A program made the translations under genes and the position numbers. Shown one piece after another: positions 5,218 to 40,772 of a stretch of DNA of 64,000 bases. The stretch is from NCBI RefSeq assembly GCF_028875915.1, contig NZ_JAPEHW010000008.1, positions 1 through 64,000 on the forward strand. Reading direction: 5' to 3'. Each line of letters begins with the position of its first letter. Position 1 is the stretch's first letter. The notes beneath the pieces are model-generated. The model searched no databases. It was not told the DNA's origin and saw only the letters and a list, made by a program, of their open reading frames with translations. Source of the DNA: Pseudoalteromonas sp. G4 (GTDB taxonomy: Bacteria > Pseudomonadota > Gammaproteobacteria > Enterobacterales > Alteromonadaceae).

Positions 5218-5220
5218 TAC

Positions 5221-5559: not shown

Positions 5560-5598
5560 GTTCCATACCTAAGTAGAACTAATTGAAAACCAATATTA

Positions 5599-5626
5599 GT
5601 TTGAGGACCTTTTAAGGCCCTCAAAG
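5599..5626 (-). promoter_or_regulatory. intercistronic hairpin between druE and the zor genes
   Basis: TTTGAGG (5600-5606) pairs with CCTCAAA (5619-5625), and the inner CCTT/AAGG extends the stem. No T run follows on either strand, so it is not a standard terminator. It may stabilise or separate the druHE and zor parts of the transcript. Confidence 0.45.
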
Positions 5627-5634
5627 ACAACTAT

Positions 5635-17592: not shown

Positions 17593-18904
17593 TATTTAGC
17601 TCCTTGCCTAAATAGATTTTATGTAATTTGCTTAACCCTTTTGTTTTATTGGATTGAACAGCTTCTTCATCCTTTATTACAACGTAGCGCAGAACTTCTT
17701 TTGCAGTTACAGCACTTTCTATCAATCGAATCAAACTATTACTGGCCCTGGCGTAATTATCAACACTGGCAAATTGCACTCGAGCATTTTCCAATCTAAG
17801 TTTATATGCCCAAACAAAACATAAACGAGCGGCTAACTCAAAATTCTGATCACCAAATTTATCTTTGTATTGTAATAAGACTGCCAAAAAGAGATTTCTG
17901 GTATACATATCTCCCGAACGACCACTTCCTTTGTAATCAACAAGGTATTGCTTTACTTCTGGGTTATTAAGTAGAAGCCGTTTTTGCTCTATGTAATAAC
18001 TGATATATTCAAAAAAGCGAGCGCCATTTAAAATCACCTGGTTTATTTGATGCGGGTAATTCAAAGATTGTTTATCAACTAACCGAGTTGGTGCTTGATT
18101 GTAATTATTAGTAAATACATGTGCACGCAAAGCTACTTGCATAAATACAGGAAGCTCATCGCTATTGATATCTAATCCTTTAAATACATCGATATCTTTA
18201 TTGGTAAAGTAGCGCCCTTTTTTACCCTTATTCCATCGCCTTAAACGGTATAAATAATCAGAGAAAATACTTTTAAGTTCACCACCGGTTGATGCTTCAC
18301 TTTCCCAATTTTCTATAACAAAGAGCTTTTCTTGTTCGTTATCATTTTTCATTTCACGTAGATGAAATGCTTTAAGTAAATCGTGGGGCTCAAGCGCCTT
18401 CCCTCTGGCATTTTGACTATCAAAAAACTGAAATGCTTCTCCTAAGTCTGACAACCTAATAACCACCACAGAGCAGCTTTTTAAAATGAAATCAAAAAGC
18501 TAGCAGAGTTCCTGTTCTTCAAAATATGAAATGTACTCTTTTATAAAAGCGCTATTATGCATTGCTTGTTGTTGTGATTCAGGGTGACTTAGCGTTAAAA
18601 GTTTCAAAAGCTCTGGCAGTTCTTTGTTTTTAATTTTGTCATTAATAGCTGCAAGTAAAAGGCAAAGCGTAATTGTACGTTGTTGACCATCAACTATCTC
18701 TAATGCTTTATCTTCAGCTTGATATAAAACAACAGTTCCAATTCTGTATTCATCACTACTAACTGCATTATTTTTTAAATCATCAATAAGTTGAATAATA
18801 TGATTTTCACGCCAACGGTAGGGACGTTGATATTCAGGAATTACAAGTTTTTCATTAAACAGTTCTTCTATTGGTTGAACTTCTGGAATAATACATTCAC
18901 TCAT
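17585..18904 (-). pseudogene. DUF262 gene interrupted by an in-frame amber codon
   Basis: Residues 1-134 carry the DUF262 motifs IPEYQRPYRW and VDGQQRTITL. A TAG at 18502-18500 then stops translation. The same frame continues without a shift into VVVIRLSDLGEAFQFFDSQN and HDLLKAFHLREM, standard later DUF262 motifs, ending at 17585. The full reading would be about 439 residues. A single base change (CAG or TGG to TAG) explains the break. The 294-residue downstream part could start internally at 18469 (reading GTG). Overlaps of 8 nt with both neighbours show it was a regular operon member. Options are recent inactivation, amber read-through, a split two-chain protein, or a sequencing error. Confidence 0.75.
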
Positions 18905-25053: not shown

Positions 25054-26541
25054 TTATGCCGATGCTTTTTTTGCTGCGCGTTTTTTGGCTGTCTCGGCTT
25101 TTTTCGCCGCTTTGGCGAGGGCTTCGGCCTCTGCTTTTGCTTGGGCTATGCGTTCAAGCAGTTTGTCGGCAGGTTCGTCGCTATCATCTTGTGGTACTAA
25201 CTCACCGCGAAACGCTTTTGCAAGAATACTTTGAGTCAGGCTATCTACTCGCGCGCGGGCTTTATTCACTTGCGCTTCAATAGTGTCGGCAAGGGCAAAG
25301 TATTCATCAACCAGGCGAACGATTTCGGTTTGCTCTTCAATGGGAGGAAGAGATAATGGAGATTCCTTTATCTTTTTTAATGTAAGTCTTTTTATCGCCG
25401 TACCACCCATTTTATCAAGCATGAGTTTTCTGCCTATTGGTGAGTTTAAATAATGCTGTAAATATTTTGGTAAAAGATAATTTGCAACCTTAATCACTCC
25501 AACACTAGACAAAAGAGATATTTGTTCATTTATATTATTTACACAAGCTAAACCAGTATTTGCTCCATCTTTAACATAAAGAACATCTCCATAGGCTACA
25601 TCACATCGAGAAAAAATCTCGTCATGAGTATCTTTACTCACGTAAGTTATCTTACTTAAGTCTATATACCCCTCTCTGACATTTTTTGAAGTAACATACA
25701 TATAATCTCCTTCAGCATGACTTTCTGGGGAATGGTGAGTGCCATCTGTTATTTTTAACGCACACAAATCTATAGAACACCAATTCCAAAATTTCGGTAG
25801 CTCTATACTAGGAAGCCCCTCAAGTAATTTAGCTTTTTGAAGTCTTCCAATTATTTGCTTTTTTCTCTGAGCAGTATTTAATTCTTCTAACTCATTGATA
25901 CTTAAAAGTGACATTAAATTAAGTTTTCGCCATTCTTCGGTTAACTTACCGCTGACGGCGCTGGCGAGCACAGATTGGCGGAAGCGTTTGATGATGTTTG
26001 GGATGCTGTCTAAACGCCCTTTTATGGCGTCAACCTGCGCCAACACGTCGTCTAACTTTTCAACAATGCGTTTTTGTTCGTTTAATGGCGGTAAAGAAAC
26101 TTGATAACTTTTTATAATTTGCTGGGAAATGTTTGGTTGAGCACCACCCTTGCCTTTTTTAATAAATCCATTTTTTTCGCTATTCAATAAATAGTAAAGA
26201 AACTCTGTCGTCGTGACATCACCAATTGGTTGTCCTACTGCGCATGCTTGATTGGTTGTCGCATCAAAATCTAATATTGATGTTTTACCAATAGTTGCAC
26301 CATACATTGCTATCGCAACAGATCCTTTCTTAAATAATTTAGCACTCGAATTTGACACACCAAGCTCAGTAATAAATTCATTAGAACTTTTCAGGTATTT
26401 AGGCCCTAGATCGCCTGTTTTAACCCAAGGTATTTCTCCGCCATAATAACTCGGTTCACTTCTTTTCGGTGTGCCGCCTGCTCCCCAAATAGCTAACTCA
26501 TCTAGTGGTGTAATAAACCAACCTTTTGGCAATTCATTCAT
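25054..26541 (-). CDS. hsdS: type I restriction specificity subunit HsdS (495 aa)
   Basis: Target-recognition subunit. Two target-recognition domains are visible (about 1-190 and 225-420), each ending in the standard conserved helix (LPPLNEQKRIVEKLDDVLAQ and LPPIEEQTEIVRLVDEYFAL). The first begins LPKGWFITPLDELA. The C-terminus is a lysine/alanine-rich coiled tail typical of this subfamily. It overlaps hsdM by 4 nt (ATGA). The recognised DNA sequence cannot be deduced here. Confidence 0.92.
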   Translation of the reverse strand: MNELPKGWFITPLDELAIWGAGGTPKRSEPSYYGGEIPWVKTGDLGPKYLKSSNEFITELGVSNSSAKLFKKGSVAIAMYGATIGKTSILDFDATTNQACAVGQPIGDVTTTEFLYYLLNSEKNGFIKKGKGGAQPNISQQIIKSYQVSLPPLNEQKRIVEKLDDVLAQVDAIKGRLDSIPNIIKRFRQSVLASAVSGKLTEEWRKLNLMSLLSINELEELNTAQRKKQIIGRLQKAKLLEGLPSIELPKFWNWCSIDLCALKITDGTHHSPESHAEGDYMYVTSKNVREGYIDLSKITYVSKDTHDEIFSRCDVAYGDVLYVKDGANTGLACVNNINEQISLLSSVGVIKVANYLLPKYLQHYLNSPIGRKLMLDKMGGTAIKRLTLKKIKESPLSLPPIEEQTEIVRLVDEYFALADTIEAQVNKARARVDSLTQSILAKAFRGELVPQDDSDEPADKLLERIAQAKAEAEALAKAAKKAETAKKRAAKKASA

Positions 26542-28187
26542 GCTTCACCGCCCTGCTCTTCTGGTTCAACTAAACCAAATTCCGCTTCTAGCAGTTGCTT
26601 TTGTGCTTCGGCTTCATTATCTGCACCGAGGGCTTTCATTAACTGATAAATTTCGCCCATAGCAGTGGTCAGTTCTGCCATAGCCTCACCTGCCAGCACT
26701 TCCGGCTCTGGTAGGTTTTCAGCACTGGTGGCCTCTAAGTCTTTTAACCATGAAATATCTAAGCTATCGCCTTTTTGATCGCGGATATACTCGCGGGAGA
26801 ATTTACGCCATCTTGCGCTCTCTAACTCTTTATTTTCTTTCTCGCTATGCGCTCTATCTTGCTCAGATTCCTTGCTTGATTCAGGGCTTTCCTCAGGATG
26901 AATGGCGCCTAAGGTGTCGTAAATGCCTTCAGTGCGCGGTGATAAACCGTTTTTGTCTTCGCCATAGGCAGCAACAAAGGTATCAAAGTGTTTTTCAGTG
27001 AGTGGACGGCGTTTACCAAAGGTATTCATATTGGTACGCATATCAAATACCCAAGTCTCTGTTGTGCAGGCGGTGTCTTGGTGGATATTATCTACGGCAC
27101 CTTTTTGGAAAAACAGCACATTGGTTTTAACGCCTTGGGCGTAGAAAATACCTGTTGGCAGGCGCAATATAGTGTGTAAACGACACTTTTCCATTAAATC
27201 GCGGCGAATATCTGTGCCTTTACCACCTTCAAACAATACGTTATCCGGAATAACCACTGCAGCACGGCCACCTGGTTCAAGCGCCTCAACAATATGCTGC
27301 ATAAAGCACAGCTGCTTGTTTGCAGTTGGATAAACAAAAGTACGGGTAATGTTGGTGCCTGATGCTGCACCAAATGGTGGGTTTGTTAAAACAACATCGG
27401 CTTTTGGCAAGTTTTCACCCGCTGCACCTAAGGTATTACCTAAGCGGATGGCCCCTTCGTTTTCATCACCTTCAATGTCGTGCAATAAGCAGTTCATCAG
27501 TGCTAAACGGCGAGTTTCGGGTACGAGTTCAAGGCCAACAAAGGCTTTTTGCATTTGAAACTCTTGATCTTCGTCGTTTAAGTCAAACAAGTTGTTGGTT
27601 TTGCTTTTTATGTATTTATCGGCTTCGATTAAAAAGCCTGCGGTGCCTGCCGCTGGATCTTGGATAATTTCACGGGCTTTTGGCTGCATTAACTTAACGA
27701 TGGTGTTAATCAATGCCCTTGGCGTAAAGTATTGGCCTGCGCCCGATTTAGTTTCGTTCGCGTTTTTTTGCAATAAACCCTCGTACATATCGCCAAAGTC
27801 ATCGCGAGTTTTACTGCTTGTGCCATCGCCTGAGTTATCTATCCACTGCAGTTTATCCATGCTATTGATCAGCTGATTTAACTGAGCAGGCTGAGTAATG
27901 CTGGTATTTACATTTTGGAAAATGGCGCGCACTATGGCGTGCTCATCTGCGCCTAGTTGTACTAATAAGTTACGGTAAAACTGATGCTGTTCTTGACCAA
28001 GTTTGTTTTTAAGGTCGTTCCAGCGAAAGCCCTCTGGTAGTAGGTCGTCTTCTTGGCCTGTTTCTTCACACATTTTTAAAAATAGTAGAGAGGCCAGCTC
28101 GTTTACATAGTTTTGGTACGACACACCACCATCACGCAGGTTATCGCACAGCTTCCAGAGTTTATTAACTAAATCAGTATTGTTCAT
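26538..28187 (-). CDS. hsdM: type I DNA methyltransferase HsdM (549 aa)
   Basis: N6-adenine methyltransferase subunit. Visible: an HsdM N-terminal helical domain (LWKLCDNLRDGGVSYQNYVN), GQYFTPRALI, the AdoMet motif DPAAGTAGF near 180, and the catalytic NPPF in VLTNPPFG near 270. Length is normal. Follows hsdR by 134 nt and overlaps hsdS by 4 nt. Confidence 0.93.
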   Translation of the reverse strand: MNNTDLVNKLWKLCDNLRDGGVSYQNYVNELASLLFLKMCEETGQEDDLLPEGFRWNDLKNKLGQEQHQFYRNLLVQLGADEHAIVRAIFQNVNTSITQPAQLNQLINSMDKLQWIDNSGDGTSSKTRDDFGDMYEGLLQKNANETKSGAGQYFTPRALINTIVKLMQPKAREIIQDPAAGTAGFLIEADKYIKSKTNNLFDLNDEDQEFQMQKAFVGLELVPETRRLALMNCLLHDIEGDENEGAIRLGNTLGAAGENLPKADVVLTNPPFGAASGTNITRTFVYPTANKQLCFMQHIVEALEPGGRAAVVIPDNVLFEGGKGTDIRRDLMEKCRLHTILRLPTGIFYAQGVKTNVLFFQKGAVDNIHQDTACTTETWVFDMRTNMNTFGKRRPLTEKHFDTFVAAYGEDKNGLSPRTEGIYDTLGAIHPEESPESSKESEQDRAHSEKENKELESARWRKFSREYIRDQKGDSLDISWLKDLEATSAENLPEPEVLAGEAMAELTTAMGEIYQLMKALGADNEAEAQKQLLEAEFGLVEPEEQGGEA

Positions 28188-28241
28188 AGGATCTCTTTAT
28201 TGCTGCTTTTAGCTATTTTTAGCAACCAGCAGCATTTTTGT

Positions 28242-28268
28242 GTTAAGCACAGTAAGGCTGTGCTTAAC
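28242..28268. repeat. strong hairpin between hsdR and hsdM
   Basis: GTTAAGCACAG and CTGTGCTTAAC form a perfect 11-bp stem with a 5-nt loop. No T run follows on either strand, so a terminator is unlikely. It may protect the mRNA or balance restriction and methylation subunit levels. Confidence 0.55.
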
Positions 28269-28321
28269 TATAAAAATTAATGGGCTAAATTGTACGTGGT
28301 TTTTGCTTTTGATAAACCGCT

Positions 28322-31300
28322 TTAAGCAGGCTCATCCCACATATATTCGTAAAACTGTTGCAGTATGCTTGATAACTCATCTTCAAAGATGTTCTCAAGC
28401 TTGCGTTTTCCACCACTGCGGCGGTAATTACCTGTTTTAAACGTGGTGTCGTCCAGTACCACTTGTTGTTTAATGCTGGCAGCTAAACGCTCAAGCCAAC
28501 TAAGTTGTGCTTCACTCCAGTTTTTACTGGCCTTTATTTTATCCAGTGCTTTATCGACTCGGGTTTCAAACGGCAGTAATGCATCGCCCATCGCAGCACG
28601 GCGAATATGGCCAATTAAGCGAGCGGCGATGTCTTCATTTTTAGTGGCTTGCCAGGCTTTACGTAGGGTTGATTCATCATAATTTTGCGCATCAAACCAC
28701 TCTTGTAAGTCAAGTAGCGCTTTACGGGTGAGATCACGCGGGCGATTAATGATCACTTCAAGGGCTGTTTGTTGATTTACTGAACTATCAACCAACTTAT
28801 CAAACGACTCAAGGAAGTCTTCAGGTTTTTCGTGATCGCCCCATACATGAGTGACTGAGACTACTTCGTCTGGAATATCAGTAAAAATAGGCATATCACG
28901 CAGTGCGTTGATATTAGTTTTTAGCTGCTCTATACGGCTTACAAAGTTAGGTAAGCTGTTAAGAATTTCAGCGCTTAGCCTTGGCCCTTTTTCTTTTAAT
29001 GTTTTTGGCAAGCTTAAAAAGTCGCAGCCTGCTTTATCGGCTAGTATTTCGTCAAAACGTTTAATATGGCTGTCGATTTCTTTTGAGCGGTCGCGATTAC
29101 ACTGTGCATGGCTAGTAATACGTTGTAGCTTTGCCACTAATTGCTCGTGGCTGTGCTCTGCAAAGCTGCGGCCATCAGCTTCCTTGGTTTGGTAGGTTTC
29201 ATCCGCTGTGATTTCGTTCACTAAAGTTTTAATATCTACCTGAGGGCGCACAACGACTGGGCGCATGGTATCGACACTTTGTAATGTGCTGTATAAGTTA
29301 ACGGCATCAAATATCTTAAAGCTGGTTTTGCCCACTTCAGGGCAAAGGCGTGTTGCGCGGCCTTTCATTTGCTCATAAAGAATACGGCTGCGAACTTTAC
29401 GCATAAAGACCAGGTTACAAATACTTGGAATATCGATACCCGTGGTGAGTAAGTCAACAGTTACCACTATGTTAGGTAAACGCTCTTTTTTGAAGCGGGT
29501 GATATGCGATTGTACTCTTTTACTGTCTTTGTCTGAATCACCGGTTATTTTAATAATGGCGTTGTGTTCAAGCTTAGGGTATTTAGTTTTAAATGCGGTG
29601 CGGAGCTCTTCTACAACAGTATCGGCATGTTCATTATTAACGCAAAATACTAAGGTTTTTTGCTTACTGGTTGGGTCGATATGATTGACCAACTCTTCGC
29701 ACACAACCTTGTTAAAGTTTGTGGAAATTAAACCGCGGTTAAAGTCGGCAACCTCAAAGTTTTGCTCATCTTCTAACGTATCGTTTTGTAGCTCACCCTG
29801 TGGCGTTAGACGCATTACTTCAGTGCCTGCGCCCATTACAACGCCATCGCGCGCCTGTTTGGTTAAAATTTTAACCGGAGGCTCTTGGTCTACTAAGTGA
29901 CCATCAATGACTGCTTTACGGTAGCTATAGCGATAAACAGGCTGCTTTTGTGTGCCACCAAAAATATCCACTGTATGTAGCGCTGGGGTTGCGGTTAGGG
30001 CAATTTTAACGGCGTCGAAATGGTCGATAATACGGCGGTAGGACGAAATAAAATCTTTTGCATCGCGGAACTTCTCTTCACCTTCGGTTTGTTCTTTATC
30101 GAGAATATAACCGCGGTGTGCTTCATCAACGATGATGCAATCGTAACGCCCTACTGGCATCACTTCGTCGCTTTGCAGGGTACGTTTTACTAATGACTGT
30201 ACAGTTGCCACATGGATTTGAGTAGCATCATCTGGAAAACGTTCGGTTAAATCACTGACGTTATAGATGGATTTAAAAGTATCGCCCTTAATGGTGGTAT
30301 CTTCAAACGAATCAAGCGCTTGTTCACCGAGAGACGTTCTATCTACTAAAAACAGTACGCGATTAAAACGCTTAGACTGAATTAAGCGGTACATTAAACC
30401 TATAGCAGTACGGGTTTTGCCAGTACCCGTAGCCATTGCCAGTAAAATGTCTTGTTCGCCACGGGTAACTGCTTGTTCTACAGCTTGAATGGCTTCTTTT
30501 TGATAATAACGCAGGCCTAAATCATCAGTGATTGGGTTTTGTTCAAACCAGTTGTTGTAAACTTGGTTGTCGGCTTCAAGTTTAGCGAGAAGCTCTTCAG
30601 GTCGATGCCACTCTGGCAACGCTTTGGGCATATTCGTATTATGACGAACATCACGATACCAAATACCACTTTTGGTTTTGGCTGCAGCGCGATATTCACG
30701 CCCATTCGCCGAGAAGCAGAATGGAATTTTATAGGGTGTGCTATTTTCATCCTGCCAGGTGGGTAAATACTGTGGCAAGGCTTCATTAACTTGGTCAGCA
30801 TCTAAGTGTGAGAGTGTTTGACGCAGTAAGCCATGATCAAATGTTTTTGAATAGCGATACGCTTCATTCAATTTAGCACTTACATCGGTATTCGCTTTTT
30901 TAGCTTCAATCACACCAACTGGTCGAAGGCCAACAAATAATACGTAATCTGCGAAGCCTTGTTTACCTGTTTCGTCGATGCCTGTTGGCCATTCAGCAAT
31001 TGCCATATTGCGGCCAACTTGTGGCCGCGTGCCTTTAGCATAATTAAGCTCTTGTGTATCTGTATCCCACCCCGCTTTACGCAGCTGAGTATCGATTAGA
31101 TAGCGGGTCTCACTTTCAGATAAGTTTAAGCTGCGTTTGGCCGCTGATTTTCGAATTTCTTCGTGGTAGGCTTTACGCTCTTCTTTGGTTTTAGCTGCAA
31201 GCTCTTGTTCTTTTGCTTTTAATTCAGCCTCGAGCGCTTTGATTCGCGCCTCATTTTGTGCCTGTGTTTCTTCTTGCTTGGACTCTAGTACGGAAATATA

Positions 31301-31840
31301 GCCTTGTAGGCTTATTACTGTATTTTGCTGCTCTTTGAGCTCTTTATCTGTAGTGACTTTTTTGCTTGTTACTTCATCAAGCTTAGTTTTGAGCTCAATC
31401 ACCTCGGCATCCATTACAGGCGCTAAGTCACCTTTTGGCAATACAAATGCAGGGGCTTTGTAATCAAGGTTTTGAGTTACTAATGAGTAGTACCACGCTG
31501 CTAGGCGATGGGCGAATCGCAGCGTCATTTCAGCATCTTCTAAGTCATTGTGATAGTCATGAACAGCTTTATTTCCAACTTTTCGAAGCACATGAAATAC
31601 TTGAATGATATCGTCTTTTATTCCTGGTACACGGGCGAGTTCACGGATAATCTCTATTTGTGTTTCTTTTTGATCAAATTTGAGCGCGTGGGCTAATTTT
31701 TTTGCGATTGTTTCTGCAAAAATACGTAGCTTTGCCATGGTGGTGTTAGGATCGCTTGGGTAATTACGCTCTGCGGCCAGCGCTATTGTGTATAGTTGAT
31801 TATCTATTTCTTTTAGAAATAAGAAGTTAGACTGTTTCAT
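28322..31840 (-). CDS. hsdR: type I restriction endonuclease HsdR (1172 aa)
   Basis: Motor and nuclease subunit, EcoEI-like. In order: a DUF4145-type N-terminus (1-130), a coiled coil (about 155-230), an HsdR_N nuclease domain with a conserved Asp in GFADYVLF and VGVIEAKKA near 312, then SF2 helicase motifs: Walker A MATGTGKTRTA near 467, VDEAHRGY near 568 and LTATPALH. Separate promoter element at 31870-31911. The N-terminal DUF4145 domain also occurs in the neighbouring 529-aa protein. Confidence 0.93.
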   Translation of the reverse strand: MKQSNFLFLKEIDNQLYTIALAAERNYPSDPNTTMAKLRIFAETIAKKLAHALKFDQKETQIEIIRELARVPGIKDDIIQVFHVLRKVGNKAVHDYHNDLEDAEMTLRFAHRLAAWYYSLVTQNLDYKAPAFVLPKGDLAPVMDAEVIELKTKLDEVTSKKVTTDKELKEQQNTVISLQGYISVLESKQEETQAQNEARIKALEAELKAKEQELAAKTKEERKAYHEEIRKSAAKRSLNLSESETRYLIDTQLRKAGWDTDTQELNYAKGTRPQVGRNMAIAEWPTGIDETGKQGFADYVLFVGLRPVGVIEAKKANTDVSAKLNEAYRYSKTFDHGLLRQTLSHLDADQVNEALPQYLPTWQDENSTPYKIPFCFSANGREYRAAAKTKSGIWYRDVRHNTNMPKALPEWHRPEELLAKLEADNQVYNNWFEQNPITDDLGLRYYQKEAIQAVEQAVTRGEQDILLAMATGTGKTRTAIGLMYRLIQSKRFNRVLFLVDRTSLGEQALDSFEDTTIKGDTFKSIYNVSDLTERFPDDATQIHVATVQSLVKRTLQSDEVMPVGRYDCIIVDEAHRGYILDKEQTEGEEKFRDAKDFISSYRRIIDHFDAVKIALTATPALHTVDIFGGTQKQPVYRYSYRKAVIDGHLVDQEPPVKILTKQARDGVVMGAGTEVMRLTPQGELQNDTLEDEQNFEVADFNRGLISTNFNKVVCEELVNHIDPTSKQKTLVFCVNNEHADTVVEELRTAFKTKYPKLEHNAIIKITGDSDKDSKRVQSHITRFKKERLPNIVVTVDLLTTGIDIPSICNLVFMRKVRSRILYEQMKGRATRLCPEVGKTSFKIFDAVNLYSTLQSVDTMRPVVVRPQVDIKTLVNEITADETYQTKEADGRSFAEHSHEQLVAKLQRITSHAQCNRDRSKEIDSHIKRFDEILADKAGCDFLSLPKTLKEKGPRLSAEILNSLPNFVSRIEQLKTNINALRDMPIFTDIPDEVVSVTHVWGDHEKPEDFLESFDKLVDSSVNQQTALEVIINRPRDLTRKALLDLQEWFDAQNYDESTLRKAWQATKNEDIAARLIGHIRRAAMGDALLPFETRVDKALDKIKASKNWSEAQLSWLERLAASIKQQVVLDDTTFKTGNYRRSGGKRKLENIFEDELSSILQQFYEYMWDEPA

Positions 31841-31919: not shown

Positions 31920-33065
31920 TTACTCTATTTCATTTACTTTGATGCGGTTAGTAAATGCCGCGACGAAATAGTGAGTATTATTGTCTTGCTTAACTGAATC
32001 TATACTGATTTTTTCAGCTAGTTCCATTGTAAGTCGGTTACTTATTTTTTTGTTGATTTGACTGCGTGTTTGTTGCACAAAGTCACGTTCCATAGGTATT
32101 AAATTTTTATGCTCACCATCGCGGAACTCTTCAGGCTCTAGCCCATATTTGGTGTAAACACGAGAGTCACTACCATGTTGACTAAAGTGCGTTAAAAATG
32201 CGATTACATGCTCTGTTGTATCTTCAAAAGTGCGATCAATCACTAAGCCTTTCTCATCAGCTTTTGAGTGTTCAAGTATCCACAGGTAAAAAGCAAACTC
32301 TTTGGCAGAGAGTTTAATTTCAACCCCAGCAAATTTTAGTTCTCTGGCTTTTTTGTTGATAGTGAGCTCTAGCTCTTTGTTATGTGCTGAGTTTAGACTG
32401 GCAACGGTTTGGCTAAACGATGCATTTTCCATGGTATTAACCAAAGTTTGATCAATCGATTTACGCATTCGCACAAACGGGATTTCAGCCAAGGTTACAA
32501 CGGCATTTTGACAATCAATCGAGCTATTGTTTTTGCCTTCAATAATGTGCTGATAAGGGGTTGGGTAATAAAAGTCTGAAACAAATTCAAACTCGTCATT
32601 TACAAACACATGGCTTAAGCTATCTTGCTCGCGGCCAAGCAGTGACATGGCATAACCCAAATAAAATGCCATGGTTTTACGACCGCCGGCAATGGATGCG
32701 TGAATGCTTAGGGTATTATCACTTGTAAGTTCAAACACTTTACGGGTGATAAAGTCAGCCATAAAGGTTTGCTCTTGCTCTGTTTTTGCATCAAGTATTG
32801 GGTTGCCTGTATCGTCTTCAATTAACCAAATATTGTTTTCGTTGAAGGTAATTTTAGGTAATTGGTAATCGTCAATTAGCTTTTGCCAGTAGCCTTGTGT
32901 AAATAAGCCATTTACCAACATATCTTTGGTATTTTGTGTAGTGATTACAAACACTTCTTCAGGCAGTTGTTTGCCTTGCTGATTTAACGCGAAGATGGTC
33001 TCGGTTAATACTTGCGGGCTTGCACCAGTTACGATGAGTAATATGTGTTTCGTTGTCTGACTCAT
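31920..33065 (-). CDS. orphan CARF protein, Csm6/NE0113 family (381 aa)
   Basis: N-terminal CARF Rossmann domain: LLIVTGASPQVLTETIFAL (9-27), VFVITT (38-43) and SIAGGRKTM (124-132), which is the diagnostic ligand-loop motif of the CRISPR-associated NE0113 family (PF09623/TIGR02584), then FYYPTP. The C-terminal half is helical. The family is expected to bind or cleave cyclic oligoadenylate made by type III CRISPR complexes. No cas gene or CRISPR array is visible in this window, so its signal source is unknown. ATG at 33065 with AGGAAG upstream. It follows the DUF4145 gene by 124 nt in the same direction. Confidence 0.8.
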   Translation of the reverse strand: MSQTTKHILLIVTGASPQVLTETIFALNQQGKQLPEEVFVITTQNTKDMLVNGLFTQGYWQKLIDDYQLPKITFNENNIWLIEDDTGNPILDAKTEQEQTFMADFITRKVFELTSDNTLSIHASIAGGRKTMAFYLGYAMSLLGREQDSLSHVFVNDEFEFVSDFYYPTPYQHIIEGKNNSSIDCQNAVVTLAEIPFVRMRKSIDQTLVNTMENASFSQTVASLNSAHNKELELTINKKARELKFAGVEIKLSAKEFAFYLWILEHSKADEKGLVIDRTFEDTTEHVIAFLTHFSQHGSDSRVYTKYGLEPEEFRDGEHKNLIPMERDFVQQTRSQINKKISNRLTMELAEKISIDSVKQDNNTHYFVAAFTNRIKVNEIE

Positions 33066-33189: not shown

Positions 33190-34779
33190 TTATTTCTTTT
33201 TTGCTTTACGCGCTTTCTTTTTAGCTTGTTTTTGTTTTTTGCGATCTGGCTGTTTGAACTGGGTGCGTGTTGTGACATAGCTGTTGTCGCGCATAAGCTG
33301 TTTACCCTTTGGTAATGCCAAAAATTCTACTGCGTTTTGGCAGCCTTCACTTGCTGCTTCACGAATAAGTGTTTTTAAGGCATAGGGCGATTTTACTGTG
33401 CCGCGCGCTTGTAGCTCTTGCCAAATAAGCATGGCCAAATCAAACTTGTGCTGTGCTTTTTCAACGTTGCACTGCGTTTTTGCTACAACTTGGTTACCAA
33501 TTTTAATAGCCAACTTACGCTGCGATTCGTGCATTCTTAACACTTCAAACAGCTCTTTATTAAAGTTGAACCAGCTAGGTAGTTGGCTGTAACTTTCAGC
33601 TAATGTAGCAAGCGCCTTTTCTTGCTCTGGTGTTTTGTTCCAATAACCAAAGTAATCACAATATGCTTGCAGGCAATCAATGCCTTTTGCACGCCTTGCT
33701 TTGGCTTCAATTAATGCGCTGCGTGCACGTTTTTGCGCCAGCTCATCTGCTTGATTTAAAAGCCACGCTTTAAGTTTTAAGCCCGCATCAACGGTAAACG
33801 AGTTTGGCTCTTTATGTGTGATGCCTTTTTCAAGCCAGTAGTTAAATTGCAGTGTATCTTTCGATTTGAAGCGATCTTGTAAGTCAGTTATGGCTTCAAA
33901 ATGGCCAAGTTCGGCTGCTTTTTCTACATGTTGCCAAGCGCGGTTATTTTGCCCTTTTTTATTAATGTAAAGAGCGAATTCGTAATGGGCTTCGCCACTC
34001 TCACATTCTTTTATGGCCGCTTTATAACACGTTTCTGCGTTGTGGTGTTCGCATGGTTGCAGCCACTTTAGCTGATAAGCTTTGGCATAAAGTAATGCTG
34101 TGCCTTGTGCATTGCACAGTGCTGAACGTGATAACCAGTATTCTAAATCACGCTTAAGCGTTTTAACCTGGTTGCGTGTTAAATCTTCAACGAGCTCTTT
34201 ACTTTTATAATGCTCTAACTGAGAAAGTGCTTGCTTTGCTAGTGCATAATTGGCTTCTTTATTGCCGTTAAGAGCAAGCTCTACGTTCTTAATCTCATCA
34301 ATATGTGTGGGCGCTTGCCAACTGGTTTTTTCACCCTTTTCACCACAAATATTAAAAATAAGAAAACTTGCTAGCTCATACACCGCCTGCATGGTGTTAT
34401 TTACTTGTTTTTGACTTGCTTGTGCACGGCCAAACCACTCGTTAGTTAATGAACAATATGCATGTACACCTAAATTCGCGTTAAGGCGAATTAGTTCAAG
34501 CTCATCAATAATGTATGGTGGTACATTGGTTACACTTTGTAATTGCTTAATTTTATTAGTAAGTTCAGTATTACAGTCCAATTTCACGCCAACTTTTTCG
34601 GCAAAGATATGGCACCACACTTCAGCAAACAAGCGTGCTTTTAATAACGCACAGCTGTGATCTTGTGAATAGAAACGATCCATATCCATCGCTAGGCGAT
34701 AAAGCTCTGGATACCAGTGCTGTAAAAATGAAAAGTTGTCTGTAGTTGTGTGTTCAATAATAGGTTGTACGTTAGTCAT
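33190..34779 (-). CDS. DUF4145-like protein with helical repeats (529 aa)
   Basis: Residues about 14-150 resemble the DUF4145 N-terminal domain of HsdR (FLQHWYPELYRLAM ... LKARLFAEVWCHIFAEK), a helical domain frequent in restriction and toxin proteins. Residues about 170-470 form helical pairs of TPR/Sel1 type (CESGEAHYEFALYINKKG, WQHVEKAAELGHFEAI). The C-terminus is a lysine-rich tail that may bind nucleic acid. No nuclease motif is seen. It has its own CAAGCTTG promoter and probably drives the CARF gene as well. Confidence 0.65.
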   Translation of the reverse strand: MTNVQPIIEHTTTDNFSFLQHWYPELYRLAMDMDRFYSQDHSCALLKARLFAEVWCHIFAEKVGVKLDCNTELTNKIKQLQSVTNVPPYIIDELELIRLNANLGVHAYCSLTNEWFGRAQASQKQVNNTMQAVYELASFLIFNICGEKGEKTSWQAPTHIDEIKNVELALNGNKEANYALAKQALSQLEHYKSKELVEDLTRNQVKTLKRDLEYWLSRSALCNAQGTALLYAKAYQLKWLQPCEHHNAETCYKAAIKECESGEAHYEFALYINKKGQNNRAWQHVEKAAELGHFEAITDLQDRFKSKDTLQFNYWLEKGITHKEPNSFTVDAGLKLKAWLLNQADELAQKRARSALIEAKARRAKGIDCLQAYCDYFGYWNKTPEQEKALATLAESYSQLPSWFNFNKELFEVLRMHESQRKLAIKIGNQVVAKTQCNVEKAQHKFDLAMLIWQELQARGTVKSPYALKTLIREAASEGCQNAVEFLALPKGKQLMRDNSYVTTRTQFKQPDRKKQKQAKKKARKAKKK

Positions 34780-35247: not shown

Positions 35248-36396
35248 TTAATTTTTGCTTTTTGTCGCCATAATTTCCGGACTATTAGCGATAATTTCTA
35301 AGTGTGAATCTTTATTTTGATACATTTCTACCAGTTGCTTCGCCCTTCTTGCAAGTTCTTCTTTTAAAAAGGCAGGCTCCTCAACAACTATCGAGTCGCT
35401 AAACATGCCCAAAAAATTTGCAAAGAAAAATAGGTCTGCTCCCTCAAAATTAAAGTGTTTTGGAAATGTTATCTGTGATTCTAATACCCAGCAATTTTGA
35501 TGCGATGTGGGCGAAAACCTAGTGCTATCGCCCAAGTGAATTGATTCGAAGTAATGCTTAACCCATGTATGACAAATTGCCTTAAAGTAATGCTTTTCTT
35601 GATAATCACCATCGTCAACACTTTGAAATGTTATCTTGGACTTTTTGATATTAGTCAAACGCCTTATTTCAAAGAATTTTAACGCACCAGCATTATGCTC
35701 ATAAGCCAATACCGTTATTTGATTGTTCAGTAAAACAATGCGTTGTGGTGAAAGTAGTAATTTGCCGTCACCGTTATCAAACTTTGAGTGAATTGATGTA
35801 TAGCTTGCTGTAAAACAGGACTCTTCAAACGTAAATGCAAAAATACTTTGCCACTTTTCTAACTCATTGGCTGTGAAACTTTCTTGATTTAACTTGCTAA
35901 AAGAATCATAGCCCATTGGGTTAAAATCTAATTTGTTTAGGTACTTGTTTGACTTAGTTTTGCTGATTACTTCATTCGCTTTTATAAAGTCTGTCGTAAG
36001 ACTTTTATAGATATGTGGTGGAATTAATGTAGATAAATATTCTTCAATAAATTGAAAGGCAAAAGCTCTTGCTTCAGACATGCTAAATGCTTCAATAGCA
36101 TCCGTTTTACTTTCAATTGATGACCAATAATATTGACGTGGCGACTTACCTTCACCTAAAACTTGTAAACCACTTTTATCATCCGACAAATAGCTCGTGA
36201 TTATACGATAAATATCTTTTTTAAAAGCTTCTGAAGATTGCCGAGGACGTTGGTAATGGGATAAGTGCTCTTTAATTAATGTGCTTAGTTTAATTTTTTG
36301 ATTTTTACCTACACCAATCGCATTTAGCAATGTGGCTGTTAAATCTGTTTTTTCTGATAAAACTCGACGTTTTTCACTTTTACTGATTTGTATCAT
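35248..36396 (-). CDS. WYL-domain transcription regulator (382 aa)
   Basis: The N-terminal region (about 15-95) looks like a winged helix (KIKLSTLIKEHLSHYQRPRQ). Residues about 205-255 match a WYL domain (LLLSPQRIVLLNNQITVLAYE ... FFEIRRLTNI), a ligand- or nucleic-acid-sensing fold common in defence-island regulators such as BrxR/CapW. The C-terminal part (EEPAFLKEELARRAKQLVEMY) matches the usual WCX extension. It lies divergently to the 99-aa gene, and the shared gap holds a GGAC-N7-GTCC palindrome only 17 nt from its own start, which suggests autorepression. Confidence 0.75.
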   Translation of the reverse strand: MIQISKSEKRRVLSEKTDLTATLLNAIGVGKNQKIKLSTLIKEHLSHYQRPRQSSEAFKKDIYRIITSYLSDDKSGLQVLGEGKSPRQYYWSSIESKTDAIEAFSMSEARAFAFQFIEEYLSTLIPPHIYKSLTTDFIKANEVISKTKSNKYLNKLDFNPMGYDSFSKLNQESFTANELEKWQSIFAFTFEESCFTASYTSIHSKFDNGDGKLLLSPQRIVLLNNQITVLAYEHNAGALKFFEIRRLTNIKKSKITFQSVDDGDYQEKHYFKAICHTWVKHYFESIHLGDSTRFSPTSHQNCWVLESQITFPKHFNFEGADLFFFANFLGMFSDSIVVEEPAFLKEELARRAKQLVEMYQNKDSHLEIIANSPEIMATKSKN

Positions 36397-36413
36397 CTAA
36401 GTATCAAGTAATG

Positions 36414-36428
36414 GGACTAATTAAGTCC
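36414..36428. promoter_or_regulatory. operator 1 of the WYL regulon (GGAC-N7-GTCC)
   Basis: GGACTAATTAAGTCC, a near-perfect palindrome between the WYL gene and the 99-aa gene. It ends 46 nt before the 99-aa start, and TAATAT (36440-36445) follows 11 nt later as a possible -10 hexamer. Confidence 0.65.
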
Positions 36429-36474
36429 TACTTTAAGTTTAATATGCTTCCTCGTCAATCATGGAGGTTTTATA

Positions 36475-36774
36475 ATGTTATCAACCGAACTATATGAAAT
36501 ACTGTCGCTTTTCACTAATGATATGTGTTATGAAGATGCATCTATCGCAGTTGAAATCAGTGAACTTCTAACAAATATAAATAAACCCAATCCTCAACTA
36601 ACCGAGAAACAGTGGTATGTACTTTCCCATTTGCTTGTTGCAGTAATTGAATTATTACAAAAAAGCAGTCTATTAACTGAAAACTCTGAACAACTGACAT
36701 TCATAGAAAATACTTTGCTTGATGCTCAGAGGTTATCTCAGTTAATTGCTCTCAATACTTCACCTGATCATTAA
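36475..36774 (+). CDS. hypothetical protein (99 aa), WYL regulon
   Basis: Not recognised. All-helical acidic protein. ATG at 36475 with GGAGG 7 nt upstream. Divergent from the WYL regulator, with a shared operator. No cysteines, signal peptide or membrane segment. Confidence 0.65.
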   Translation: MLSTELYEILSLFTNDMCYEDASIAVEISELLTNINKPNPQLTEKQWYVLSHLLVAVIELLQKSSLLTENSEQLTFIENTLLDAQRLSQLIALNTSPDH

Positions 36775-36901
36775 AGAGCTGTTTTAAATTATAAGTGGCG
36801 ACAGATTAGGCTTTAAAAGGGTTAGCATCAATTCAAACTTTCATAGTCAGCTTTAATTAATGACCAAATCAGACAATTCACTAAATTAAATACAAAAAGT
36901 A

Positions 36902-36916
36902 AGACTTAGAACGTCC
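36902..36916. promoter_or_regulatory. operator 2 of the WYL regulon (AGAC-N7-GTCC)
   Basis: AGACTTAGAACGTCC, one mismatch from the GGAC-N7-GTCC pattern, ending 44 nt before the ATG at 36961. TATATT (36928-36933) follows 11 nt later as a possible -10 hexamer. Confidence 0.5.
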
Positions 36917-36960
36917 TAGGAAAATTTATATTTTCACTTTCAATTAAATAGGAGTTGATA

Positions 36961-37428
36961 ATGAGTTACTTACCCAAAACACAATTACCAAACATTGAAG
37001 ATTTAAATAAACCTCGCCCAAATTTAGAGGATCTACTTGCATCAAGGCCAGAGCAGTATCGTGTGCGAAAAGATTACTGGTTTGATGCCTTGATGTGCGT
37101 TTTATTTACTTACGCAACTATACTCGTCGGTGTAATGTATTTTAACAAGGTATTGAACTTAGAACTTTTTGTTCTAACAATTCTCATTTCCTACCCATCA
37201 TTGTATTTATTCTTCTTTCTTAGAACAGAGCGAAGAGATTACGAATTAAAAGTGAAATGGGTCACCATCATGTACATGCCTGATAAAATGAAAAAAGAAT
37301 ATTTAATGATGTTAAGAGCGCGCAAAGAAGGTATTTTCAGTGGCGTTTTTCGCATCGTAATTTGCATAATCGCATCACCTATTGTCATCATTGTATTTAA
37401 TAAATTACTTTCAAATAATAAACATTAA
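36961..37428 (+). CDS. small inner-membrane protein (155 aa), WYL regulon
   Basis: Soluble proline-rich N-terminus (to about 40), then membrane segments near 43-63, 67-90 and 127-150, with a basic cytoplasmic loop between the second and third. Function unknown; small multi-span proteins in defence operons are often membrane effectors. I chose the ATG at 36961, which has TAGGAG 6 nt upstream, over a TTG six bases earlier. Confidence 0.65.
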   Translation: MSYLPKTQLPNIEDLNKPRPNLEDLLASRPEQYRVRKDYWFDALMCVLFTYATILVGVMYFNKVLNLELFVLTILISYPSLYLFFFLRTERRDYELKVKWVTIMYMPDKMKKEYLMMLRARKEGIFSGVFRIVICIIASPIVIIVFNKLLSNNKH

Positions 37429-37446
37429 AGGAGCTACTGCTCCTTT
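37427..37446. terminator. hairpin between convergent small genes
   Basis: AAAGGAGC and GCTCCTTT form an 8-bp stem with a 4-nt loop between the 155-aa and 113-aa genes. The T run is weak on both strands, so it is a modest terminator at best. Confidence 0.5.
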
Positions 37447-37450
37447 ACAT

Positions 37451-37792
37451 CTACAGTTTCAAAATTATTGTATTTTGCTTTAAGCACTGCATTTCGAATC
37501 GATACAATAAATAATTATATGCCTGACAAGGGCTACCAAAAGCTTCTAATGTTAACTTTTCATCTGTTTTAGTATTTTCAATTAAAGCTGATATCGAAAA
37601 CTGTTGAAAATAGTTAAATGCTAACTCTGTATTTCCACCTGTTTCAAAGCTGATAATTTGCATCCTTAAATTACCATTTTGACTATACAAAACGCCCGTC
37701 AATGCCAAAATTGCTAATGGGCTTCCATTCATTTCACTTGGCACTCCTATTAAGAATGCCTCTTCCAAAAGTTGTTCTTTTATCAATAGCAT
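37451..37792 (-). CDS. hypothetical protein (113 aa), divergent from the DUF2779 gene
   Basis: Not recognised. Mixed alpha/beta, with a hydrophobic strand (SPLAILALTGVLYS) near residue 25-38 and a helical C-terminus. It shares its 105-nt upstream region, with operator 3 in the middle, with the nuclease gene at 37898; the operator is about 45 nt from both start codons. Confidence 0.6.
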   Translation of the reverse strand: MLLIKEQLLEEAFLIGVPSEMNGSPLAILALTGVLYSQNGNLRMQIISFETGGNTELAFNYFQQFSISALIENTKTDEKLTLEAFGSPCQAYNYLLYRFEMQCLKQNTIILKL

Positions 37793-37837
37793 GGCAAATT
37801 AACCTCACAGTAAATAGGATTATTTTACAGCCTTTTA

Positions 37838-37852
37838 GGACAAATAACGTCC
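37838..37852. promoter_or_regulatory. operator 3 of the WYL regulon (GGAC-N7-GTCC)
   Basis: GGACAAATAACGTCC midway between two divergent genes, 45 nt from each start. CATAAT (37866-37871) follows toward the nuclease gene. Confidence 0.65.
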
Positions 37853-37897
37853 ACTTTAAAGCTATCATAATAACTTATCACTCTTGGAGGCTATAAA

Positions 37898-39859
37898 ATG
37901 AACAGATACCTGACAAAATCACGATTCAAATTAGCAACAGAATGCCCCACAAAGCTTTTTTATACAGGAAAAATTCAATATCCTGATACTAAGCTTGATG
38001 ATGCGTTTTTAACGGCTTTAGCTGATGGCGGTTTCCAGGTAGGTGAACTTGCTAAACAGTATTTCCCTCAAGGCCACGAAATAACAACGCTTGATTATGA
38101 AGAAGCAATTTCACAAACCAATAAGTTATTAAACCAAGAAGAAGTAGTGATATTCGAACCTGCAATTCGCTTTGGAAACCTATTTATTCGCGTAGATATA
38201 TTAGTTAAAAATGGTAACTTTTTGGAGCTAATTGAGGTTAAAGCTAAATCTTACTCAAAGCATGAAGACAAAAACTTCTTAAATAAGTCAGGTAAGCTTG
38301 AATCAAGCTGGAAACCCTATATTTTCGATGTTGCATTTCAAAAGCATGTTCTACAAAGCGCATTTCCAGATGCACAGATTTCAAGTTATCTAATGCTTGT
38401 TGATAAAGATTCACAATGTGCAACTTCTGGGCTAAATCAAAAGTTCAAACTGATAAAAAATGAAAACAATAGACGGGAAGTTGTGACGGACGAACTTTCA
38501 GAGAGAGATTTAAAAGCCAAAATCCTAAAACAGGTGAATGTAGACCACGCTGTTAATCTTGCATACGAAAATGAACTAAAAACGGGTTATCCAGCTAACA
38601 GTTTTAAAGAAAACATCATCGAATTTGCCAATTACTACCAACAGGACGAAAAAATAGCACCTGTTATTGGCGCTAAATGTAAAAAGTGTGAATTTAAAAC
38701 CAACAATGAAAACGAAAGCCAAAAATCTGGGTTTAAAGAATGCTGGAAACAACAATTAAACTGGCAAGAAAAAGATTTTTCAGACCCAACAGTACTCGAT
38801 ATAGCCAATTTTAAGAGTGCCGACAAATGCATTCAAAATGGCAAAATTAAATTAAAAGATATAGAGAAGGAAGATATCAACTATAAAGAGTCAGGTGAGT
38901 CTGCTCTCAGTCAAAAAGAAAGGCAATGGCTTCAAATAGAGAAAGTACAAAATCAAGACCAAAATATTTTTTTTGATAGTGATGGTCTGAAAAAGGAAAT
39001 GGAAAAGTGGACATACCCACTGCATTTTATTGATTTTGAAACAAGTGCTGTTGCCATACCATTTTACCAAGGGATGCATCCTTATGAGGGAATTGCATTT
39101 CAGTTTTCACATCACATTTTGCATGAAAACGGAAAAGTTGAGCATGCCGGTCAATTTTTATGTACCGAGCAAGGTGAATTTCCAAACTTTAACTTCGTGA
39201 GAGAGTTAAAGGCACAATTGGAACAAGATAATGGCACTATTTTTCGCTATTCCAATCATGAAAACACCTATTTAAACATGGTTCTTCAACAACTTAAATG
39301 TTCAAATGAAACAGATAGCGCCGAGCTATGTGAGTTTATTAAATCAATCACTAAATCAACAGCTAAAAGCAATGAACATTGGATTGGAAAGCGTTGTATG
39401 GTAGACCAATTAGAGTTAGTTAAAAAATACCACTATGATCCCGTTACAAATGGTTCAAACTCTTTAAAGGCTGTTTTACCTGCAATTTTAAACAGCTCCA
39501 ATTATTTAAAAGAAAAATATAGTAAACCTATTTATGGTACAGAAGAGATCCATAGCCATAATTTTGTCAAAAAAACTTGGATTCAATTTGATGATGCTGG
39601 CAAGGTTAATGACCCTTACAAAACACTTCCAAAGCTATTCGATGACATCACAGATCACGATGTTGAGCTGCTATCAGAAACAGATGAATTAAATAATGGC
39701 GGATTAGCACTTACCGCTTATGCCAAAATGCAATTTACTGAAATGTCTGATTATGAACGAAACCAATTGCAAAAAGCTCTGCTGATGTATTGTGAATTAG
39801 ATACGTTTGCAATGGTAATGCTTCAAGAAGCATGGCAAGTTATGTTGAAGCAAAAGTAG
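37898..39859 (+). CDS. DUF2779 protein: Cas4-like nuclease plus DEDD-type exonuclease (653 aa)
   Basis: The N-terminal PD-(D/E)XK nuclease domain has D100 in IRVDILV and E113-V-K115 in LIEVKAKS. C16 (ATECPTKLFY) together with CKKC and a third cysteine (FKECW) near 270-290 could bind an iron-sulfur cluster as in Cas4/RecB-type nucleases. A second domain begins at FIDFETS (D379, E381), the first motif of RNase H-like DEDD exonucleases, followed by FRYSNHENTYLN and DQLELVKKYHYDP. This is the DUF2779 arrangement. Strong binding site (GGAGG) before the ATG. Operators lie on both sides: one drives this gene, the next drives mazG. Biological target unknown. Confidence 0.75.
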   Translation: MNRYLTKSRFKLATECPTKLFYTGKIQYPDTKLDDAFLTALADGGFQVGELAKQYFPQGHEITTLDYEEAISQTNKLLNQEEVVIFEPAIRFGNLFIRVDILVKNGNFLELIEVKAKSYSKHEDKNFLNKSGKLESSWKPYIFDVAFQKHVLQSAFPDAQISSYLMLVDKDSQCATSGLNQKFKLIKNENNRREVVTDELSERDLKAKILKQVNVDHAVNLAYENELKTGYPANSFKENIIEFANYYQQDEKIAPVIGAKCKKCEFKTNNENESQKSGFKECWKQQLNWQEKDFSDPTVLDIANFKSADKCIQNGKIKLKDIEKEDINYKESGESALSQKERQWLQIEKVQNQDQNIFFDSDGLKKEMEKWTYPLHFIDFETSAVAIPFYQGMHPYEGIAFQFSHHILHENGKVEHAGQFLCTEQGEFPNFNFVRELKAQLEQDNGTIFRYSNHENTYLNMVLQQLKCSNETDSAELCEFIKSITKSTAKSNEHWIGKRCMVDQLELVKKYHYDPVTNGSNSLKAVLPAILNSSNYLKEKYSKPIYGTEEIHSHNFVKKTWIQFDDAGKVNDPYKTLPKLFDDITDHDVELLSETDELNNGGLALTAYAKMQFTEMSDYERNQLQKALLMYCELDTFAMVMLQEAWQVMLKQK

Positions 39860-39873
39860 GACATTAAGCGTCC
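39859..39873. promoter_or_regulatory. operator 4 of the WYL regulon (GGAC-N7-GTCC)
   Basis: GGACATTAAGCGTCC, beginning at the last base of the DUF2779 stop codon and ending 48 nt before the mazG-like start. TATTAT (39884-39889) follows as a possible -10 hexamer. Confidence 0.6.
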
Positions 39874-39921
39874 TTTCCAAATATATTATTAGCCCAACTA
39901 AAACTCGTAGAGACTCTAAAA

Positions 39922-40299
39922 ATGGAACAAATAGTTACACATAAAAAACTTGGATTAACTAACTTGCAAACACAAGTTGACGAATGGATTAAAAATGTTG
40001 GGGTAAGGTACTTTGACGAAATGACAAATCTTGCCAATTTAATGGAAGAAGTTGGTGAAGTAGCCCGCTTAATGTCTCGTACCCATGGAGAGCAAAGTTT
40101 TAAGAAGGGCAAAGAACCAAGTGATATAAAAGCTGAAATCGCCGATGAACTTTCAGATGTACTATTTATTGTGACTTGTTTGGCAAATCAAATGGAAATT
40201 GATTTAGAGTTTGCTATGAACAAAAACCTCGATAAAAAAACAGGTCGAGATAAAGAAAGACATATTAATAATCACAAGCTAACCAACGAATCAAATTAG
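39922..40299 (+). CDS. MazG-like nucleotide pyrophosphohydrolase (125 aa)
   Basis: All-alpha NTP pyrophosphatase with the EExxE...ExxD metal site: NLMEEVGEVARLM and IADELSDVLFIV. Members hydrolyse (d)NTPs to monophosphates, which in a defence context could starve or clean nucleotide pools. Single-domain length is normal. It lies 62 nt after the DUF2779 gene with its own operator, and 11 nt before the GIY-YIG gene. Confidence 0.82.
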   Translation: MEQIVTHKKLGLTNLQTQVDEWIKNVGVRYFDEMTNLANLMEEVGEVARLMSRTHGEQSFKKGKEPSDIKAEIADELSDVLFIVTCLANQMEIDLEFAMNKNLDKKTGRDKERHINNHKLTNESN

Positions 40300-40310: not shown

Positions 40311-40772
40311 ATGAAATACATCGATAATCTTATCAAGGATTGTGAAGAAGCTAAATTAGCAAAGCCTATTCAAGAATTTAATATAGAACATGTAGAAGAG
40401 TTGCCACTATTACCTAAAATTAAACAAGCAATCTATGTGATAAAAGAGATCGATGGTGATCCGAACTCCACATTTGAACAGTTTCGTGATTTCAAAGTAC
40501 AAAAATCACGAAAATGCGCAAAGTTAAATAAGCCAAACTCTGTATTATATGTTGGTTCATCAACTACAAGTTTAGTAAGTAGATTAAAACAGCATTTTGG
40601 ATATGGGAATAAAGCTACTTACTCTCTTCACTTATCACATTGGTTTAAAGGCAAGGTGAAAGTGTCTATCTACCAATATGACTTACCAGCCAGAGTATTA
40701 CAAATTGTCGAAGACAACTTGTCTGATGAACTAAAACCTGCATTCGGCAAACTTGGTGGTAATAATAAATAA
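40311..40772 (+). CDS. GIY-YIG-like nuclease-fold protein (153 aa)
   Basis: Core motifs: AIYVIKE as the first strand (GIY-like), SVLYVGSSTTSLVSRLKQH as the YIG-like strand with its arginine helix, and a C-terminal segment ending KPAFGKLGGNN. Substitutions in both motifs leave its nuclease activity uncertain. I chose the ATG at 40311 (GAGGTG 5-6 nt upstream) over a GTG at 40299 that overlaps the mazG stop. In one operon with mazG. Confidence 0.65.
   Translation: MKYIDNLIKDCEEAKLAKPIQEFNIEHVEELPLLPKIKQAIYVIKEIDGDPNSTFEQFRDFKVQKSRKCAKLNKPNSVLYVGSSTTSLVSRLKQHFGYGNKATYSLHLSHWFKGKVKVSIYQYDLPARVLQIVEDNLSDELKPAFGKLGGNNK

Follow-up and report, generated by a model that had tools for sequence, protein, structure and literature searches.

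A candidate WYL regulon with symmetric operators at the -35 position of a DUF2779 gene module in Pseudoalteromonas

A 64,000-nucleotide (nt) stretch of Pseudoalteromonas sp. G4 (positions 1 to 64,000 of contig NZ_JAPEHW010000008.1, assembly GCF_028875915.1; hereafter the window) contains a compact module that couples a gene for a WYL-family transcription regulator (35248..36396, minus strand) to genes including one for a DUF2779 protein (37898..39859, plus strand). Four palindromic sites with a 15-base-pair (bp) core, GGAC-N7-GTCC, stand at the promoters of this module. Their membership in a regulon of the WYL protein, with binding predicted, is strongly supported. The sites lie where a -35 hexamer would be expected, and the WYL protein is probably a homodimeric activator of the module of the type represented by DriD.

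Operator sites and their distribution

Exact copies of the core were found at 36414..36428 (GGACTAATTAAGTCC, operator 1), 37838..37852 (GGACAAATAACGTCC, operator 3) and 39859..39873 (GGACATTAAGCGTCC, operator 4, overlapping the last base of the DUF2779 stop codon). A copy with one mismatch (AGAC...GTCC) lies at 36902..36916 (AGACTTAGAACGTCC, operator 2). All four were located where the original prediction had placed them. The predicted 44–48 nt between site and start codon agrees with the measured core-to-start spacing of 46, 44, 45 and 48 nt for operators 1 to 4. Operator 1 faces the gene of a 99-amino-acid (aa) protein and, as reported, lies 17 nt from the WYL start (36396). Operator 3, described as equidistant between divergent genes, is indeed 45 nt from both starts (37792 and 37898) and is flanked on both sides by -10-like hexamers. 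Such hexamers had been placed 8–13 nt downstream of the sites; the gap, counted in nt from the 15-bp core to the hexamer, narrows to 10 or 11 nt at the five promoters obtained by counting operator 3 both ways.

The further claim that no copy lies outside the module stands for exact copies in the window and fails for one-mismatch copies, one of which is at 5605. Five matches to GGAC-N7-GTCC with up to one mismatch were found in the window against 4.9 expected, an unremarkable tally; what counts is clustering and genome-wide rarity. In the whole assembly (4,404,483 bases, 179 contigs) the exact core occurs at six places, compared with 16 for a reversed-pattern control. Three of the six fall within the module's 3.46 kb, and simulation gave a probability of about 4e-5 for three of six random places in a span of that length. 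The core alone is unspecific, because 152 places match with up to one mismatch (477 for the control). Combined with a -10 hexamer (TANNNT), the operator occurs once in the genome at gap 11 and four times at gap 10, all in the module, compared with one and zero for the control. As the module and its relatives supplied this combined pattern, the only independent information in it is its absence from the rest of the genome. A flanked pattern, TRRGAC-N7-GTCNNA, was less specific (five genome places, two in the module), and two window sites deviate from its flanks. The genome scan that had been suggested as a check revealed no even scatter of copies; both the exact and the operator-plus-10 scans concentrate in the module.

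Similar sites accompany relatives of the WYL gene in other genomes. A scan of genome contigs identified five loci encoding a WYL relative with 45–48% identity, in Psychrosphaera (L007), Pseudoalteromonas lipolytica (L008), P. luteoviolacea (L009), Thalassotalea (L010) and Colwellia (L011), and a sample of 394 genomes of the order yielded a sixth (L026). All six carry such sites at promoters of a related module, with two to four exact sites in L007–L011 and two AGAC-type one-mismatch sites in L026. In the window and in every one of these loci, 17–22 nt separate an operator from the WYL start. As AGAC sites adjoin the WYL gene in L008, L009, L010, L011 and L026, the AGAC form at 36902 can be regarded as a normal variant. 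The reading of the sites as a WYL regulon is supported both by their rarity and clustering in the genome and by their like beside WYL relatives in other genera.

The related modules comprise the WYL gene and genes for a 98–107-aa protein, a membrane protein (matched in L008–L011 by position and hydrophobicity rather than by blast), a 118–122-aa protein and a DUF2779 protein (69–70% identity). The L026 module is reduced to the WYL, DUF2779 and a 360-aa protein. Variable extras include, in the window, a MazG-like protein and, in L010, an OGG-like DNA glycosylase, besides 348- and 388-aa proteins without assigned function. Among the 394 genomes, a WYL profile match was found in 11 and was full-length in four; the same four encode a DUF2779 protein with at least 69% identity, with one more genome at 39% and one at 22–34%. 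A first sample of 147 relatives had the WYL gene in three, the window's own genome included; two members of the genus, G006 and G085, carry a WYL relative. A search of plasmids, phages and viral contigs found no WYL relatives. The operator is not proposed as a trait of the whole WYL family: in ten distant WYL genes and one WYL gene in the BrxR position, GAC-N7-GTC occurs within 300 nt upstream of only three of the 11, at 137–267 nt.

Several further observations concern these loci. Although one comes from Pseudoalteromonas and the other from Colwellia, the L009 and L011 modules (2249–9095 in both) share 99.96% identity across 6,847 bp, and the hisF genes beside them give no megablast alignment with each other; near-identical modules next to unalignable hisF point to recent transfer, into the same place. 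In genome G085 (L048), the DNA flanking the other side of the module encodes BrxC, BrxB and BrxA together with a WYL protein in the BrxR position. This flank, of bacteriophage exclusion (BREX) type, contains no exact site, and none of the operator kind upstream of its WYL gene. An 88-aa open reading frame (ORF) at 9199–9465 of L030 (genome G398) matches the WYL protein in its C-terminal part only and is probably a remnant, with no module in the 19 kb around it. Around a DUF2779 relative of 37–39% identity in L047 (genome G468), neither an exact site nor a WYL match was found within 18 kb.

Operator width and promoter architecture

Alignment of 19 non-redundant oriented sites (25 reduced by similarity) gave the consensus T-R-G/A-GAC-A ... 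T-GTC-C/T-Y-A. The operator is wider than the 15 bp described previously, approximating TRGGACA-N5-TGTCCYA, and the site at 7934 of L007 forms a perfect inverted repeat whose 11-bp arms are separated by 5 bp. Excluded before counting were one-mismatch matches in coding regions (3664 and 5042 in L009 and L011, 3408 and 4786 in L010, 7044 in L026), directions towards the WYL gene or facing no gene start, L011 as nearly identical to L009, and the L007 site at 2557. At the last of these, a further operator with one mismatch (2557–2571), TAACTT follows at gap 11, and a 510-aa lipoprotein-like ORF that is not part of the conserved module lies downstream.

The -10-like hexamers of the window are TAATAT at gap 11 for the 99-aa gene (36440..36445, plus strand) and, all at gap 10, TATATT for the membrane-protein gene (36927..36932, plus), TAAAAT for the 113-aa gene (37822..37827, minus), TATCAT for the DUF2779 gene (37863..37868, plus) and TATTAT for the MazG-like gene (39884..39889, plus). 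In the set used for spacing (21 oriented sites reduced to 19), -10-like scores above 3 were seen at gap 11 in 11 of 19 and at gap 10 in four; other gaps gave zero to four (four at gap 0, three at gap 3). None of 5000 shuffles attained the observed mean best -10 score at gaps 10/11, and in 1000 shuffles no pair of adjacent gaps did. By locus, a -10 at gap 10 or 11 follows 5/5 sites in the window, 2/4 in L007, 5/6 in L008, 6/6 in L010 and 2/2 in L026, over a background of 4–9%. When similar alleles were included, 20 of 23 promoters scored above 3 at one of these two gaps.

None of the 23 promoters has more than three of six matches to TTGACA at spacers 16–18, and TGN precedes the -10 in only one of 19. 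If the -10 is set at -12 to -7, gap 11 assigns the left half-site to -38 to -35 and the right one to -27 to -24, with the -35 covered by the central N7. The operator occupies the -35 position at an almost fixed distance from the -10 in promoters lacking a good -35, a feature absent from the earlier description. Two of the sites call for comment: that at 7039 of L010 faces a gene for a 139-aa membrane protein, and that at 9133 of L026 was counted as a DUF2779 promoter with the DUF2779 start about 180 nt away. In the same part of L026 (8951–9156) the 98-aa gene is missing, and its type of promoter and leader persists between the WYL and DUF2779 genes.

A control with 99 genomes of the genus, among them G844–G853 regardless of WYL-gene status, found the gap-11 signature in 45. 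The matches lie in the module in three of three cases in G006 and four of five in G085; other genomes have zero to four matches each, with no cluster among the places listed for them. The promoter signature RGAC-N7-GTCC-N10/11-TANNNT could be used to find similar regulons.

The regulator and its predicted target genes

The 382-aa regulator has a divergent WYL domain and a putative N-terminal helix-turn-helix region, with weak Pfam WCX/WYL and PADLOC WYL matches. Its direct Pfam WYL match falls below the curated cut-off, as do those of three relatives. Comparison of a six-member clade profile with nine canonical WYL regulators gave an E value of 1.4e-16 over 275 columns, which supports its membership of the WYL/WCX transcription regulators. 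Pfam returned no helix-turn-helix match, and an alignment covers the N-terminal region weakly. A mixed profile of the clade and remote relatives reached PafBC structures at 1.6e-19 and BrxR at 1.8e-9, together with chains at 8e-14 that we take to be DriD and one at 1.4e-8 that is presumably CapW. With these two labels assumed, the score order is PafBC, DriD, BrxR, CapW. The AlphaFold2 model of the protein was poor (predicted local distance difference test score, pLDDT, 47), and PADLOC also returned one marginal Csm2 match.

Downstream of operator 1 lies the gene of the 99-aa protein (36475..36774, plus), which has no predicted function and is related to the 98–107-aa proteins of other modules. 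It is followed by a gene for a 155-aa predicted membrane protein with three hydrophobic stretches (36961..37428, plus) and one for a 113-aa protein (37451..37792, minus), again without predicted function, with 27–29% identity to the 118–122-aa proteins elsewhere. Beyond the DUF2779 gene are genes for a MazG-like nucleotide pyrophosphohydrolase (39922..40299, plus; 125 aa; Pfam MazG 8.1e-13) and a GIY-YIG domain protein (40311..40772, plus; 153 aa; Pfam GIY-YIG 4.8e-6), the latter probably co-transcribed with the former, judging by their spacing.

The 653-aa DUF2779 protein (Pfam DUF2779 1.5e-21; weak Cas4 matches) is a predicted double nuclease that joins a Cas4-like N-terminal part to an RNase H-like exonuclease-clade domain. 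Residues C16, C261, C264, C282, D100, E113 and K115 are invariant across six aligned DUF2779 proteins, a pattern that we take to be the PD-(D/E)XK plus iron-sulfur arrangement of Cas4-type nucleases. Also invariant are D379, E381, Y631 and D635, presumably a DEDD-type pattern. Its activity and its role in the module are inferred; the AlphaFold2 model was poor (pLDDT 39). Published passages on DUF2779 (PF11074) assign the family to the RNase H-like superfamily, within its 3'-5' exonuclease clade, and note its co-occurrence with DUF83, a PD-(D/E)XK-like domain (PMC3985635). The window protein has in common with that family a predicted exonuclease-clade domain with a nuclease-like N-terminal part. 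In the listed titles and abstracts of open-licence papers, no function or WYL regulator was attributed to the DUF2779 family. The role of these nucleases appears unassigned in the literature surveyed, and the inducer of one would be a clue to it.

The surroundings of the module, with type I restriction-modification genes at 25054–31840, look like a defence island. Beside these genes lies a gene for a CARF-domain protein of NE0113/Csx1-like type (31920–33065, minus), and the gene at 33190–34779 (minus), which adjoins a complete HsdR gene, encodes a protein similar to the beginning of HsdR over its first 200 residues (DUF4145-like). Two adjacent ORFs at 15556–18469 (minus) match the N-terminal and later parts of the same Orf5/HEC-06-type defence models and may be one defence gene split over two frames. 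PADLOC assigned the module proteins to no described defence system, returning the weak WYL and Cas4-like matches and the marginal Csm2 match only, and found no match for the 388-aa protein or the L047 DUF2779 relative.

Proposed activation, its rivals and known WYL systems

We propose that the 15-bp sites are the cores of operators at which a dimer of the WYL protein would read approximately the wider palindrome, its half-sites flanking the would-be -35 hexamer with the -10 lying 10 or 11 nt downstream. A ligand would switch the protein on; by analogy with DriD and PafBC this is perhaps single-stranded DNA (ssDNA). The active protein would then hold RNA polymerase on promoters without a usable -35, turning on the genes for the 99-aa, membrane, 113-aa, DUF2779 and MazG-like proteins, with operator 3 driving both directions. 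Binding at operator 1 may in addition repress the WYL gene, since its start is only 17 nt away (17–22 nt across the loci), too close for activator geometry. So regulated, the set would look like a response to DNA damage or a defence response, inducible and carried on mobile DNA, possibly with an anti-phage role. More tentatively, and with somewhat less than even confidence, we suggest that the whole is a mobile, self-contained response triggered by DNA damage or ssDNA, in which a DriD-type WYL activator would govern a defence-island module around a predicted Cas4-like/DEDD double nuclease and symmetric operators would fire two divergent promoters at once.

Alternatively, the WYL protein could be a repressor like BrxR or CapW, sitting at the -35 position and covering the promoters until it is released by a ligand that infection generates; the module would then be silent in healthy cells. 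BrxR and CapW repress defence genes, CapW also its own (PMC9122588, PMC9122601), and the module sits in defence islands. We judge repression unlikely, yet it stays the main rival because BrxR of Acinetobacter binds a pseudo-palindrome over its predicted -35 (PMC9122589), so that an operator at -35 is not in itself proof of activation. In E. fergusonii the BrxR box, with 11-bp arms and a 5-bp spacer, also has the same geometry as the L007 site (PMC9122601). Further points count against activation. The clade profile alone (five members) reached no WYL structure, and the ranking of activators first depends on the remote relatives added to the mixed profile. A fair -35-like hexamer occurs at spacer 15 in two promoters (3480 in L009, 5621 in L008), and low -35 scores follow in part from the operator filling that place, no positive control with promoters of the genus having been included. 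In the window only one of the five promoters shows gap 11, the other four having gap 10; the site at 2178 in L008 and L009 lacks a -10 at the expected gap, and L007 has two weak ones. Against repression, a repressed promoter should keep a working -35 or an extended -10, and the 23 promoters offer none of the former above three of six matches and the 19 a single case of the latter. Nor does repression require a near-constant distance to the -10. CapW sites, moreover, overlap the -10 (PMC9122588), and activator structures outrank repressors in the mixed profile.

The sites might instead be operators of another regulator encoded elsewhere, with the WYL gene a mere neighbour, given that binding by the WYL protein is predicted and that operator 1 is simply adjacent to its gene. 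This appears highly improbable: six loci of other genomes have the operators alongside a WYL gene, one operator keeps its place close to the WYL start in all of them and in the window, and the BREX-side WYL gene of L048 has no such site upstream. Chance repeats without function would fit the window-only one-mismatch count, which is no higher than expected, but are contradicted by the clustering, the genome-wide operator-plus-10 scan, the conservation in other genera and the position of the -10; we attach almost no weight to them.

The proposed activator resembles that of the DriD regulon of Caulobacter crescentus. The DriD consensus is ATACGAC-N7-GTCGTAT; its sites occupy the -35 and keep a constant distance to the -10, and its promoters have only one or two of six -35 matches (PMC12340889). 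The GAC-N7-GTC palindrome, its place on the -35, the constant -10 distance and the poor -35 all recur here, as do the several promoters and the nucleases, here predicted, among the targets (PMC12340889). By proposal the two also share a WYL activator, activation and ssDNA binding being suggested here by analogy. The half-sites (TAC-GAC in DriD, TRG-GAC here) differ mainly in the base next to GAC, C versus G. Unlike in the DriD regulon, the targets here form a compact module in defence islands, and the two proteins are only distantly related. DriD is described as not regulating its own gene (PMC12340889).

The PafBC-type consensus of mycobacterial RecA-non-dependent (RecA-NDp) promoters, tTGTCRgtg-8 nt-TannnT, sets TGTC 12 nt from TANNNT, as at the gap-11 sites here (PMC5656591); in four of the five window promoters this distance is 1 nt less. 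Those promoters likewise lack a -35 and have their element at -26 (PMC11804915, PMC5656591). SiwR and PafBC act via a -26 element (PMC10693628), and the right half-site here falls at that place. PafBC, a heterodimer, recognizes a non-palindromic site (PMC6789036), whereas the operator here is a palindrome. SiwR of Mycobacterium smegmatis is a WYL activator of a divergent neighbour operon, with a 19-bp imperfect palindrome and a -26 GGA element (PMC10693628); its target is one operon of DinB/YfiT-like genes, whereas here a predicted nuclease module carries several operators.

BrxR and CapW share with the present system their place in defence islands and their palindromic sites at the promoters of their own genes; the BrxR box has 11-bp arms and a 5-bp spacer (PMC9122601, PMC9122589, PMC9122588). 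They differ in repressing, from sites that overlap the -10 or the -35 or lie downstream of the -10 (PMC9122601, PMC9122589, PMC9122588), and in site sequence, judged from passages of these papers. In titles and abstract beginnings of open-licence literature, within the best-ranked part of longer lists, we found no WYL-controlled DUF2779 module and no DriD-type regulator of a defence module, which is not proof of absence. The module yields testable predictions on the direction of regulation, ssDNA as inducer and exact promoter positions. In the papers considered, the WYL regulators of defence systems (BrxR, CapW) repress, and the WYL activators (DriD, PafBC, SiwR) serve stress and DNA damage; a module with activator-type promoters in defence islands would join both. 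If the proposed activation is correct, WYL proteins would also switch immunity on, through the promoter architecture of the SOS-independent damage response.

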